Of a DNA stretch of 45,042 nt, positions 28,226 through 32,329 are shown piece after piece. The translations under genes were made by a program, and so were the position numbers. The number at the start of each line of letters is the position of its first letter. Position 1 is the stretch's first letter. The notes under the pieces are model-generated. The model had not been told where the DNA came from, searched no databases, and saw nothing but the letters and a program-made list of their open reading frames with translations. Origin of the DNA: Bacteroidia bacterium (GTDB lineage: Bacteria > Bacteroidota > Bacteroidia > J057); the NCBI GenBank assembly GCA_030430575.1, contig JAUIKF010000062.1:1-45042 (forward strand), given 5' to 3'.

Positions 28226-29539
28226 ATGTATACCTCAGCAGATAAGCTTCTAGCGCTCCCCCAAATTCAGGCGCAAATCACTACCTGGCGCAGCCAGCAA
28301 GCACGAATCGTGTTTACCAATGGCTGTTTTGATCTCCTTCATCCTGGTCATATTGATTACTTGGAAAAAGCCAGACAATTGGGTGATAAGCTGATTGTGG
28401 GGTTAAATTCGGATGCTTCTGTGCAGCGACTGAAAGGGATGTCGCGACCGTTATGTCCCGAGAGGGACCGTGCCAGGATGTTAGGTGCATTGGCAAGTGT
28501 GGATGCCGTTGTTATGTTTGAAGAAGACACGCCTTTGGCCTTGCTTACGGCGCTTCAGCCAGATGTACTGGTGAAAGGGGGGGATTACGAAGGAAAATTG
28601 GTGGTGGGGCGTGAGGTAGTGGAGAAAAATGGTGGTGAGGTGGTCCTCATTCCCTTCCTGGAGGGCTATAGCACGACTTCCCTCATCGAACGCATACAAG
28701 GCGTTGAGTTGGAAGTAAATGAGCAGCGAATTCGCCTATCACAAGATGCCATAGAATTGGCAATTCCCCTCCATTTCAATGGGCCACAGCCCAATACCTA
28801 TGGGGTGCCAGCGGCCAGTGCCCACCCCTATGAAGATGGCGAATTTGTGGGAGATGTCAATCAAGGGGGAAGTTGTAATTTTGAGCAATACACCTTTGTT
28901 CCACATTGCAATGGTACTCATACCGAATGTGTGGGGCATGTCGCCGACCAGCCAGTTTACCTACATGAGCAGCTCACGGATAGCTTCTCTCTTGCACAAC
29001 TCATTAGCATACAGCCCATCCATCCTACTGAAAGCTCAGATTCCTATCAGCCTCCTTTGGCACCTGAAGATTGGGTAATCGATAAAAACAGCCTGGAAAA
29101 GGCTTTGGCAGGACATATTTCCCCAGCTACCAAGGCACTCATCATTCGCACCCTCCCCAACGGCCCGCATAAACTCAGTCAAGACTATATGCAAGCGCCA
29201 CCTGCTTTTTTTTCGAATGAGGCCATGACCTATATCCATGAATTGGGCATCCACCATTTGTTGGTCGATATGCCCTCGGTAGACCGCCTATTTGACGAAG
29301 GCAAACTCAGCAATCACCGTATCTTCTGGCAACTGACGCCTGAAGGCCATCAGGTAGACCTCCACCAGCCTTTGACAGCCTTACGCACGATCACGGAGAT
29401 GATCTATGCCCCTGATGAGGTAGCTGACGGCACCTATATGCTCGAGCTTCAGGCTGCGCCTTTTATGGCGGATACTGCGCCGAGTCGGCCACGGTTGTTT
29501 AAGACCGCTCGGGCTTCGCAGACTCAGCCCTCGCTGTGA
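28226..29539 (+). CDS. Fusion of heptose-1-phosphate adenylyltransferase (RfaE2-like) and a cyclase/kynurenine-formamidase-like domain
   Basis: The 437-residue ORF joins two families. Residues about 1-160 are an RfaE2/HldE C-terminal-type nucleotidyltransferase: TNGCFDLLHPGHIDYL (HxGH motif H39-H42), GLNSDASVQRLKG, VLVKGGDY and GYSTTSLIERI. Residues about 165-430 are a cyclase-family (arylformamidase-like) domain of the Bacteroidota type, with FVGDVNQGGSCNFEQYTF, HCNGTHTECVGHV (metal-type His and acidic residues H227, H232, E234, H238) and LLVDMPSVDRLFDEGKL. The first half activates heptose-1-P for LPS; the second resembles N-formylkynurenine hydrolases. The joint functional sense is unknown. 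The last about 13 residues come from the downstream palindromic repeat. A weak promoter TACTTTCG (28214-28221) lies 5 bases before the ATG. Confidence 0.88.
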   Translation: MYTSADKLLALPQIQAQITTWRSQQARIVFTNGCFDLLHPGHIDYLEKARQLGDKLIVGLNSDASVQRLKGMSRPLCPERDRARMLGALASVDAVVMFEEDTPLALLTALQPDVLVKGGDYEGKLVVGREVVEKNGGEVVLIPFLEGYSTTSLIERIQGVELEVNEQRIRLSQDAIELAIPLHFNGPQPNTYGVPAASAHPYEDGEFVGDVNQGGSCNFEQYTFVPHCNGTHTECVGHVADQPVYLHEQLTDSFSLAQLISIQPIHPTESSDSYQPPLAPEDWVIDKNSLEKALAGHISPATKALIIRTLPNGPHKLSQDYMQAPPAFFSNEAMTYIHELGIHHLLVDMPSVDRLFDEGKLSNHRIFWQLTPEGHQVDLHQPLTALRTITEMIYAPDEVADGTYMLELQAAPFMADTAPSRPRLFKTARASQTQPSL

Positions 29540-29813
29540 GACCGTTCGCTTGCGCTCACTGCGGGACCGTTCGTCGCGAAGCTCCTCACTGCGGGATCGC
29601 TCGGCTCGAAGACTCACCTCGCTGCGAGATTCACCCTGAGCGCAGCCGAAGGGCTAAAGGCATGACTTTTAGTCTCTTGTCTCGCAGCGAGTCTTCGAGC
29701 GGTCTCGCAGTGAGGGCTGTCTTCAGTCCGAACGGTCTCACAGTGAGGAACGCAGTGACGAACGATCTCGCAGCGAGCCCGCAGGGCGAGCGGTCTTAAT
29801 CCCGAGCGGTCTC
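29501..29813. repeat. Large nested imperfect palindrome between convergent genes
   Basis: The stretch is built from repeated short modules such as ACCGCTCG, TCGAAGACTC, CTCACTGCGGGA and TCTCGCAGTGAG. The left half (for example GCTCGAAGACTC at 29604-29618) is inverted in the right half (GAGTCTTCGAGCGGTCTC from 29690) around a spacer near 29630-29679. It overlaps the end of the fusion gene and the last codon of the Rieske gene on the other strand. The same modules build 34881-35086. Confidence 0.75.
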
Positions 29814-30162
29814 AGAATATCCCCAAAAACCTCCTCTTCGGCAATTTCACCCAAAGTTCCCCGCGCTCTTTCTTGACCTCGTAGGATTCGAGGAAATAGC
29901 CACCGGTACGGCATTCGCCGGAATGGAGGTCAAAGGCGAAGCGATGCCAAGGGCAGACGATAGCGCCGCTATCGTCTACATGGCCGCCGGCCAGGGGGCC
30001 GCGTTGGTGGGGACAACGGGCATCTACGGCATGCCATTTCCCTTCATGAAAGGCCACACAGAGGAGCTTATTGCGGACCGTCACGCTGTGGAGTTGGCCT
30101 TGCTTCGGTTCGTATAGATCTGCATGACTGAGGGCTTCAATCGGATACCATTCGTGCGGCAT
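29812..30162 (-). CDS. Rieske [2Fe-2S] domain protein
   Basis: The 116-residue protein has the Rieske cluster motifs CPH (C50, H52) and CPWH (C70, H73) with 17 residues between, in DARCPHQRGPLAGGHV and IVCPWHRFAFDLHSGEC. It is a single-domain ferredoxin of the NirD/BphA3-like kind, an electron carrier or small subunit of an oxygenase or nitrite reductase. No partner oxygenase is nearby. The C-terminal LPKRRFLGIF is family-like, so the stop at 29812 inside the repeat is genuine. Confidence 0.9.
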   Translation of the reverse strand: MPHEWYPIEALSHADLYEPKQGQLHSVTVRNKLLCVAFHEGKWHAVDARCPHQRGPLAGGHVDDSGAIVCPWHRFAFDLHSGECRTGGYFLESYEVKKERGELWVKLPKRRFLGIF

Positions 30163-30256
30163 AGTTTTCTGGTTTTGTCTTTCGTCTGAGTTCGTGTTAA
30201 TTTAGGCAAATAATCAGACAGTAAAGACAGAAACACTTACGCTAGCAGCTAACAGA

Positions 30257-32329
30257 TTGAATTCTAGGATCATAAAAGGCATATTATTGACCCTTTCTAT
30301 AGGATTGTGGGGGTTGCTGGTGGTTTTTCACTGGTTGGCGAATCGTATCGGAACGCCGCCTTACTTGTGGTTGTGGTATCAAGTAAGCCTTGCAGGGTTT
30401 TTTATAGGAACCGCCATTTACATACGACAGGTATTTTCCAAAATAGAACGCCTAGATGTCATCACGATGCTTTGGCGCCTATTTATCATAGGCATGGTAG
30501 GGATCACCCTGATGCTGGCCATGCTCATGCTACATCATATCCTGGATGAGAAGCTCAGTTCCAGTATGATGACGATCCTGAGTCCTGCTTTTTATACCAT
30601 CAGCCTGTTTGCGCTGTTGATTTTTTTCCTTTCAGGTGTCTTTATCTATAAGCGATTTATTCTGTACCAAAAAACTAAGCGAAAGCTATGGAGTTGGAAT
30701 ATTTTTCTGGGGTTTATGATGGTGACCCTGACGTTAGGGATTACAGAGCTTTTTAAGCCCAATGGAGTTCCGGATACCCTCGATACCTCTATTGACATTT
30801 TGTTCGCAGTGCTGCTGCTGTATTTAGCTACAAATGTTAGTTGGACAGCTTATCTCAATTTCAATCAGAAGTTGAAGGCTTTGGGGTTGTTTGTTCTGGT
30901 CATCGTAGTATCGGTGACTTACCTCACAGCATTGGATCGGCTCCCTACTGAGTTGGACCTTACCGATAAAGGGATTGGTTTCTTTAATCAGTTGATGGAC
31001 TTACGGTTTGTGTTTTTTATTGCAGCCTTCACCATTTCCTATAGCGCCATTTCCATCCTGGTCCTTTTCTTTAACCTCCCCACCTACTCTATCTTCGAAC
31101 TCAAAAGCTCAGAGATCGCTTCCTTTAACAAAATTCACCAAGCGATTCAGGGCAATTTTAATCACACAGACATTCTCAATACGCTCCTGGATGCCAGTAT
31201 GCTTTCTTCCAATGCACGTGCTGGCTGGGTAGAAATCCTCAATGGGAAACAGACCTCTGAAGTTCATATTCGAAAAGGGATAGAATCTGAAGAGATCCAA
31301 GCCCTAGTTGACAGCTATGACATGTTAGGAAGGGTAAAAGAAGATCGGCAGTATTTCTTGGTAAAAAACACGCGAAGGCATAAGACCTTCAAACATGCAG
31401 ATTCGCCTTTCCGATCTCTCTTGTGCATGCCGATTTTTGTCAAGAACGAGTTGCAAGGAGCCGTCTATATTGCCAATGAAATGTCCAATTCCTTTGAGGA
31501 TGTGACGCTGGCTTCTATTTCGTCTTTTGTAGAGCAGGCGAGCACGGCGATTGAGAATGCGGGATTGGTGCAAAATGCGATCAGTCTGGAACGCTACCAG
31601 GAGCAGATCAAGATCGCTAAAGAGGTGCAAAGTCAATTGCTCCCCAATGCATTGCCGAACTCTTCGGTGCTTGAATTTGGCGTAGTGAATGCCACAGCGG
31701 AAGAGATAGGTGGAGACTATTTTGATATCATCCGTCAAGACGATCTGTACCGCATCGCCATCGGCGATGTATCGGGCAAAGGCACTACCGCCGCTTTCTA
31801 TATGGCGGAGATCAAGGGCATCTTTCATGCCCTCAGTCTGGCGAAAGTATCGCCTAAGGAATTTGTCGCTCTCGCGAATCAGGCGATCTCAAATTGCTTC
31901 CATAAAGGCTCTTTTTTGACCTTGACGTATCTCCATATTGATGTGAAGACACGCGAGTTAGAGATGATTCGAGCAGGTCACTGCCCATCTTTCTATTATT
32001 CGGCTGCTGAAGATAAGATCAGCACGTTGCGCAAAGGAACTTTGGGCCTGGGGATTGTGAGAAATGAAACTTTTTCCAAGCATCTTAAGTATAGTGATGC
32101 GATCAAATTTGAGGCGGGAGATATACTCACTTTATACACTGACGGGGTGGTAGAAGCTCGAAATACGGAGAAGGAAGAATTTGGCTATGAGCGATTCCAG
32201 GAGGTATTGGAAGCCAATAAAACAAAAAGCGCTCAGGAAATAGGAGAAGCCGTCATGGATGCCGTGCGGTTGTTTGCAGGTGAAGGGATTCACGACGATT
32301 ACACTTTGCTAATCATTAGATTTTTATAA
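30257..32329 (+). CDS. Membrane GAF-PP2C (SpoIIE/RsbU-type) serine phosphatase
   Basis: The product has about 690 residues, starting at TTG 30257; no ATG precedes the first membrane segment. About eight transmembrane helices occupy residues 1-265. A GAF-like domain follows at about 290-440 (ILNTLLDASMLSSNARAG, SLLCMPIFVKNELQGAVYIA). A coiled linker (RYQEQIKIAKEVQSQLLP) leads to the PP2C domain at about 470-690, with GGDYFDI, GDVSGKGTTAAFYM, LYTDGVVEARN and IHDDYTLLIIRF holding the metal-binding aspartates. SpoIIE-type phosphatases dephosphorylate STAS antagonists; the STAS and kinase genes follow directly. The 8-TM sensor half and GAF domain suggest a signal sensed in the membrane or cytoplasm. 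Confidence 0.9.
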   Translation: MNSRIIKGILLTLSIGLWGLLVVFHWLANRIGTPPYLWLWYQVSLAGFFIGTAIYIRQVFSKIERLDVITMLWRLFIIGMVGITLMLAMLMLHHILDEKLSSSMMTILSPAFYTISLFALLIFFLSGVFIYKRFILYQKTKRKLWSWNIFLGFMMVTLTLGITELFKPNGVPDTLDTSIDILFAVLLLYLATNVSWTAYLNFNQKLKALGLFVLVIVVSVTYLTALDRLPTELDLTDKGIGFFNQLMDLRFVFFIAAFTISYSAISILVLFFNLPTYSIFELKSSEIASFNKIHQAIQGNFNHTDILNTLLDASMLSSNARAGWVEILNGKQTSEVHIRKGIESEEIQALVDSYDMLGRVKEDRQYFLVKNTRRHKTFKHADSPFRSLLCMPIFVKNELQGAVYIANEMSNSFEDVTLASISSFVEQASTAIENAGLVQNAISLERYQEQIKIAKEVQSQLLPNALPNSSVLEFGVVNATAEEIGGDYFDIIRQDDLYRIAIGDVSGKGTTAAFYMAEIKGIFHALSLAKVSPKEFVALANQAISNCFHKGSFLTLTYLHIDVKTRELEMIRAGHCPSFYYSAAEDKISTLRKGTLGLGIVRNETFSKHLKYSDAIKFEAGDILTLYTDGVVEARNTEKEEFGYERFQEVLEANKTKSAQEIGEAVMDAVRLFAGEGIHDDYTLLIIRFL

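Follow-up and report, generated by a model that had tools for sequence, protein, structure and literature searches.

The locus described here raises the question of why an enzyme domain of lipopolysaccharide heptose activation should share one open reading frame with a hydrolase that probably belongs to tryptophan catabolism, and whether such a protein implies a link between the two pathways. The frame lies in a window (the whole stretch of DNA analysed) of 45,042 nucleotides from the genome of a Bacteroidia bacterium, hereafter G000, assembled into 127 contigs with a size of 8.16 Mb. We consider it likely that the gene is a lineage-specific fusion of two neighbours, rfaE2 and a KynB-like gene, and that it encodes a bifunctional protein without mechanistic coupling between the halves.

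The gene forms a single frame of 437 codons from ATG to TGA (Table 1), and a search with the fused protein against its own genome returned one uninterrupted self-match over residues 1–437. Both results confirm the single ORF proposed in the sequence-only reading of this DNA. No second copy of either half was found in G000 with the fused protein as query (E≤0.001). The N-terminal half matches the NCBIfam model TIGR02199 (rfaE_dom_II) over residues 18–158 with 205.5 bits against a cut-off of 181.5, and the C-terminal half matches the Pfam family Cyclase (PF04199) over residues 197–354 with 43 bits against a gathering score of 23.1. The combination of an RfaE2 domain with a cyclase/arylformamidase-like domain, as first suggested, is thus borne out by scores above both cut-offs. 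The motifs named with it were likewise all recovered: HPGH at residues 39–42, which we take to be the HxGH nucleotide-binding motif of nucleotidyltransferases, GGDY and STTSLIERI in the N-terminal half, and HCNGTHTECVGH at residues 227–238 in the C-terminal half. Of the positions that 90% or more of the other rows share in the respective alignments, the N-terminal half keeps 49 of 50 (41 other rows; the change is I107L) and the C-terminal half deviates at 1 of 40 (102 other rows), the median deviation among the other rows being 1 in both cases. Nothing in this comparison suggests decay of either half.

Table 1. Position of the fused gene and its features in the window
Feature	Position	Strand	Basis
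Fused ORF, 437 aa, RfaE2/HldC-type adenylyltransferase and kynurenine-formamidase-type cyclase (predicted)	28226..29539	+	Open frame, HMMs
N-terminal half, heptose-1-phosphate adenylyltransferase domain, residues 1–158	28226..28699	+	TIGR02199, HldC 5xf2 fold, conserved positions
HPGH motif, residues 39–42	28340..28351	+	From translation
Junction CAA GGC GTT GAG TTG; stop and start codons of relatives absent	28697..28711	+	Spacing compared with relatives
C-terminal half, PF04199 cyclase-fold hydrolase, probable kynurenine-formamidase-type subfamily, residues 159–425	28700..29500	+	PF04199, KynB fold, neighbours
Metal-site motif HCNGTHTECVGH, residues 227–238	28904..28939	+	18-row alignment, KynB profile match
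C-terminal tail, about residues 426–437 and stop codon, repeat-encoded	29501..29539	+	Repeat matches, end of same-genus protein
Dispersed repeat copy, about 300 bp, with internal inverted repeats	29502..29812	.	Inverted repeats, genome matches

The best fold match of the N-terminal half is HldC of B. pseudomallei (PDB 5xf2; Z 8.5), with 42% identity over the 108 residues of the structural alignment. The two share the whole domain and the HxGH, GGDY and STT motifs. Unlike HldC/RfaE2, the N-terminal half is without the last 3–5 residues that follow the STT/STS motif in three relatives, and unlike HldC it runs directly into a second enzyme. Its residues 112–157 were predicted with low confidence because the alignment used for structure prediction was too thin, comprising 34 cyclase rows from the best 80 loci, a single row for RfaE2 and the query itself, and no meaning can be attached to how the two domains lie relative to each other. 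The HldE model (NF008454), which matches residues 9–158, offers a known case of RfaE2 within a bifunctional protein. The partner in HldE, however, is an enzyme of the same pathway, that of the fused protein one assigned to tryptophan catabolism. A homologue of the heptose-7-phosphate kinase is encoded on contig C22 of G000 and covers nearly the full model with 326 bits against a cut-off of 345, a value reached by none of the 22 genomes of the order and by 2 of 14 control genomes. A cytidylyltransferase–PfkB fusion with a domain order opposite to that of HldE was seen in the family (L023, 337–1905), where other frames of similar length match both models.

The structure of the C-terminal half was predicted with pLDDT mostly above 90. 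Compared with 13 solved cyclase-fold entries it gave Z scores of 16.4–22.7, the best belonging to the kynurenine formamidases KynB 4cog, 4cob and 4co9 (22.4–22.7; for 4cog, 22.7 over 205 residues at 2.1 Å) and all others lying at 21.1 or below. Foldseek also placed 4co9 first, with an uncharacterised hydrolase ranking between it and the other KynBs. Since the next fold relatives follow closely in Z, the substrate cannot be read from the fold alone.

According to a KynB study (PMC4243253), the metal site of this enzyme is formed by Asp56, His161, Glu173, His50 and His54, His60 is the key catalytic residue, and none of His54, Asp56 and His60 varies across 336 KynB sequences. In an 18-row alignment with the C-terminal half, H227, H232, E234 and H238 are invariant, as are H364 and E391, and in the profile alignment H364 falls in the region of a later KynB histidine. 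The three motif histidines align with those of KynB; E234 stands at the position of Asp56 and there is one extra residue, in an aligned stretch that is weak (7 bits). Within the limits of that stretch, the canonical HxGTHxDxPxH of KynB, with its Asp56, is replaced by HxxGTHTExxxH. The domain is also larger than that of KynB, and it scores 16.8 bits to the canonical model TIGR03035, far under the cut-off of 223.05. The C-terminal half is therefore outside the canonical family as curated; it most likely works like KynB. KynB is dimeric and builds its active site from residues of both subunits, again according to PMC4243253, and by analogy the fused protein may dimerise through its C-terminal half. 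Three members with the HxxGTHTExxxH motif were scanned (P0001, L002 and L084), and all three miss the curated KynB model. Their subfamily of PF04199 is apparently an under-annotated type of kynurenine formamidase.

The gene context of this subfamily resembles that of KynB. We counted neighbours within 4 kb to either side of the best 80 of 583 confirmed cyclase loci in named genomes, checking one or two representatives of each kynurenine-pathway enzyme. At least one gene of the pathway was present near the cyclase in 63 of these 80 loci, namely KMO (52), kynureninase (51), 3-HAO (45), ACMSD (37) and TDO (8). RfaE2 was a neighbour once, at L080, and HldE or heptose kinase at none of the 80; 17 of the 80 had no pathway gene nearby, some loci being cut short. 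Among the 22 genomes of the order, 15 carry both the cyclase and kynureninase, one has each alone and five have neither (Fisher p 0.0013, kinship ignored), and no association of the cyclase with RfaE2 was detected in the same 22 genomes (p 1). The two single cases are G006, in which the cyclase is present and kynureninase does not exceed the cut-off, and G011, in which the reverse is found; G008 has KMO and 3-HAO and neither kynureninase nor a cyclase of this kind. The content of G007, where the cyclase and kynureninase occur without RfaE2 or a strong heptose-kinase match, suggests that the cyclase is independent of RfaE2. Nine genomes (G003, G004, G005, G012, G013, G015, G016, G020 and G021) have kynureninase above the cut-off, and in each the sole PF04199 protein found is this cyclase. 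Judging from record titles, the subfamily extends over Bacteroidota, Acidobacteriota, Gammaproteobacteria, Planctomycetes and others.

G000 itself encodes TDO (C34), kynureninase (C45), KMO (C9) and 3-HAO (C105), all off the contig of the fused gene, so a formamidase would complete the pathway. Given the kynurenine neighbours, the KynB-like fold and the presence of the pathway in the genome, we take the C-terminal half to be most likely a kynurenine formamidase, KynB-like with an altered metal motif, and not a sugar enzyme. A role in a modified-sugar step, raised in the sequence-only reading, is not supported by gene context and co-occurrence, the relatives of this half being found beside kynurenine genes and together with kynureninase, with no special tie to RfaE2. 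G000 also encodes two PF04199 proteins of greater distance, on contigs C56 and C73, which score 82.3 and 43.3 bits to TIGR03035 and could share the formamidase role. G021 has what looks like an operon led by rfaE2, with cyclase, kynureninase and KMO following in that order on the same strand (L171, 805–4765), an arrangement seen only there in the match tables of the order's 22 genomes.

Fusion of the two genes appears to be confined to G000. The search covered 735 other genomes in all, drawn from the family, order, phylum and class, and its results concern the matches listed. Outside G000, no match spanned both halves among 13 genomes of the family or 22 of the order, and no fused homologue was present among the matches listed for even draws of 395 phylum and 395 class genomes. 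Some match to the fused protein was found in 289 and 371 of these, respectively; about the best 150 matches of each draw were considered, near the top of which a fused homologue should rank. That the halves are always separate genes in relatives, proposed earlier as a ground for rejecting the fusion, is true of every match listed; it does not count against the fusion, being what a lineage-specific event looks like. Of the long frames in the match lists, which also include those of, for example, G115, G242, G199, G122, G589 and G107, a few were inspected as candidates for other fusions and rejected: in L042 (482 aa) Pfam identifies a cyclase only, in L033 (G013, a frame of 1152) the cyclase is an ORF of 249 aa, and in G182, G166 and G213 RfaE2 forms a separate ORF. 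The match of RfaE2 in G517 occupies residues 332–484 of an ORF of 487 aa, the upstream part of which received no identification. Text searches of the open-access literature brought up no earlier report of an rfaE2–cyclase fusion, which is weak evidence of novelty.

RfaE2-like genes are also common on viral contigs of IMG/VR, where at least 575 of 600 candidate stretches code for a relative of the fused protein. The best 80 of the 575 confirmed loci match mainly the N-terminal half, and the C-terminal half used alone gave no match in these 80 (E≤0.001); for one locus, L202, a match was reported over residues 7–238.

How the fusion may have arisen can be read from three of the 21 other genomes of the order, in which rfaE2 and the cyclase are adjacent. 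The genes are separate in all three, by a gap of 2 nt in G009 of the same genus (rfaE2 at 965–1447 and cyclase at 1450–2268 of L002), and with an overlap of 4 nt in G002 and in G021, which belongs to another family. Junction spacing, counted from the S codon in the STT/STS motif near the RfaE2 C-terminus as far as the end of the cyclase IPL motif, is 116 nt in each of them and 102 nt in the fused ORF. In the relatives the cyclase frame is consequently out of register with that of RfaE2 (116 mod 3 = 2), whereas in the fused ORF it is in register. The shorter junction and the shared register therefore indicate that a net deletion joined the two frames. Two adjacent and tightly packed genes would have become one by a net loss of about 14 nt across the stop and start codons, which would have removed both codons and merged the frames. 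RfaE2 would have been shortened by about 3–5 residues at its end; the cyclase would have lost little more than its start. The linker of a few residues proposed earlier proves to be no added linker, the spacing across the junction being 14 nt below that of three relatives.

The simplest reading of these sequences is that the fusion arose after the split from G009. It cannot be dated from this comparison, the two genomes being distant from each other (protein identity 57% and 62%) with synonymous sites near saturation (pS 0.70 and 0.75; pN 0.31 and 0.28), and for the same reason pN/pS says little on selection since the fusion. In the tree of the cyclase half, the fused gene and its same-genus counterpart form one group (97/97); most of the RfaE2 tree lacks resolution, and it says nothing firm on the history of the pairing. 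The end branches of the fused gene (0.66 and 0.96) are longer than those of G009 (0.31 and 0.42), which could reflect faster change in the gene or in the whole lineage.

That the genes are truly separate and an assembly or sequencing error mimics a fusion would agree with its presence in one genome, each match listed elsewhere covering one half only. We nevertheless regard such an artefact as very unlikely. One miscalled base or a one-base indel would leave the junction spacing almost as it is, whereas the observed junction is 14 nt net shorter than the identical spacing of the three relatives and the frames merge exactly; the assembly is moreover rated 99% complete with 2.21% contamination. 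The assembly error at the junction that was named at the outset as able to refute the fusion thus becomes unlikely. A real ORF could still give two proteins in practice if the cyclase were freed by cleavage or by an internal start, for which there is an in-frame TTG (codon 162, 28709–28711) with AAGG 7 nt upstream; the start/stop overlap in G002 and G021, two of the three genomes where the genes adjoin, also suggests translational coupling. This outcome seems unlikely to us, because no sequence feature would halt ribosomes arriving from the upstream half, so that the long form is expected anyway, and Shine–Dalgarno sites probably matter little in Bacteroidota. Our best inference remains a stable bifunctional protein made as one chain. 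Two independent active sites would perform adenylyl transfer to heptose-1-phosphate, for ADP-heptose synthesis, and metal-dependent hydrolysis of N-formylkynurenine, in the pathway from tryptophan through kynurenine to 3-hydroxyanthranilate. The two activities would be tied by co-expression only, and we see no evidence of substrate exchange between the halves.

The catalytic assignment of the C-terminal half has its own competitor, another cyclase-fold hydrolase, of an isatin-hydrolase-like or esterase-like kind, with a role within the kynurenine pathway or next to it. The fold is common to the uncharacterised 3krv (Z 21.1) and to isatin hydrolase (Z 18.6), the metal motif departs from that of canonical KynB, and another PF04199 protein is an esterase, according to PMC5341072. 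We judge this unlikely, since within the clusters the C-terminal half would fill the step from TDO to KMO, which is formylkynurenine hydrolysis, and since no other PF04199 protein was found in the nine genomes mentioned above, all with kynureninase above the cut-off. A different proposal would have the two halves coupled and acting on a new joint substrate, such as a modified heptose or a kynurenine product in nucleotide-activated form. The adjacency of RfaE2 and cyclase genes in G009, G002 and G021, with rfaE2 at the head of a kynurenine operon in the last, speaks for it, and shows that the pairing also occurs outside the fused genome. Against it stand the count of this adjacency in the order (3 of 21 other genomes), the neighbour counts around the cyclase (63 loci with kynurenine genes, one with RfaE2 and none with heptose kinase, among the best 80 of 583) and the gene content of G007; together they make a coupled enzyme very unlikely. 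The recurrence of the pairing, adjacent in three other genomes of the order, at the head of a kynurenine operon in one of them and fused in G000, could also mean that heptose activation for LPS and tryptophan catabolism are physiologically connected, with the fused protein channelling or co-regulating both; this is in our opinion highly improbable.

A fusion of neighbours without mechanistic coupling would be a readable case of how a very small deletion can merge genes from unrelated pathways, and the same genus provides intact, separate versions for comparison. Both halves are most likely ordinary enzymes of known kinds, fused in one lineage. It also serves as a caution that a domain fusion need not mean a functional link. 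A by-product of the analysis, maybe more useful than the fusion itself, is the KynB-like subfamily whose metal motif is altered, which is widespread and has kynurenine-pathway genes beside it in several phyla; this HxxGTHTExxxH subfamily is probably the formamidase of the bacteria that carry it.

At the 3′ end of the gene, a dispersed repeat that gave at least 113 matches in G000 (E≤0.001; 40 of 220 candidates scored) begins at about 29502, and many of the other matches begin at about 29499–29503 (query position 5–9). The protein of the same-genus genome G009 ends a few residues beyond this start point. From these two observations, the last 12 or so residues and the stop codon are taken to be derived from the element, in agreement with the repeat-encoded C-terminal tail noted earlier. 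Further downstream, three small genes of the same-genus genome, acetyltransferase-like, kinase-like and cytochrome-like as named by eye, are missing from the window. The Rieske-type and SpoIIE-like genes of this region (29540–32329), also named by eye, are syntenic with that genome (L173, 6823–10935).
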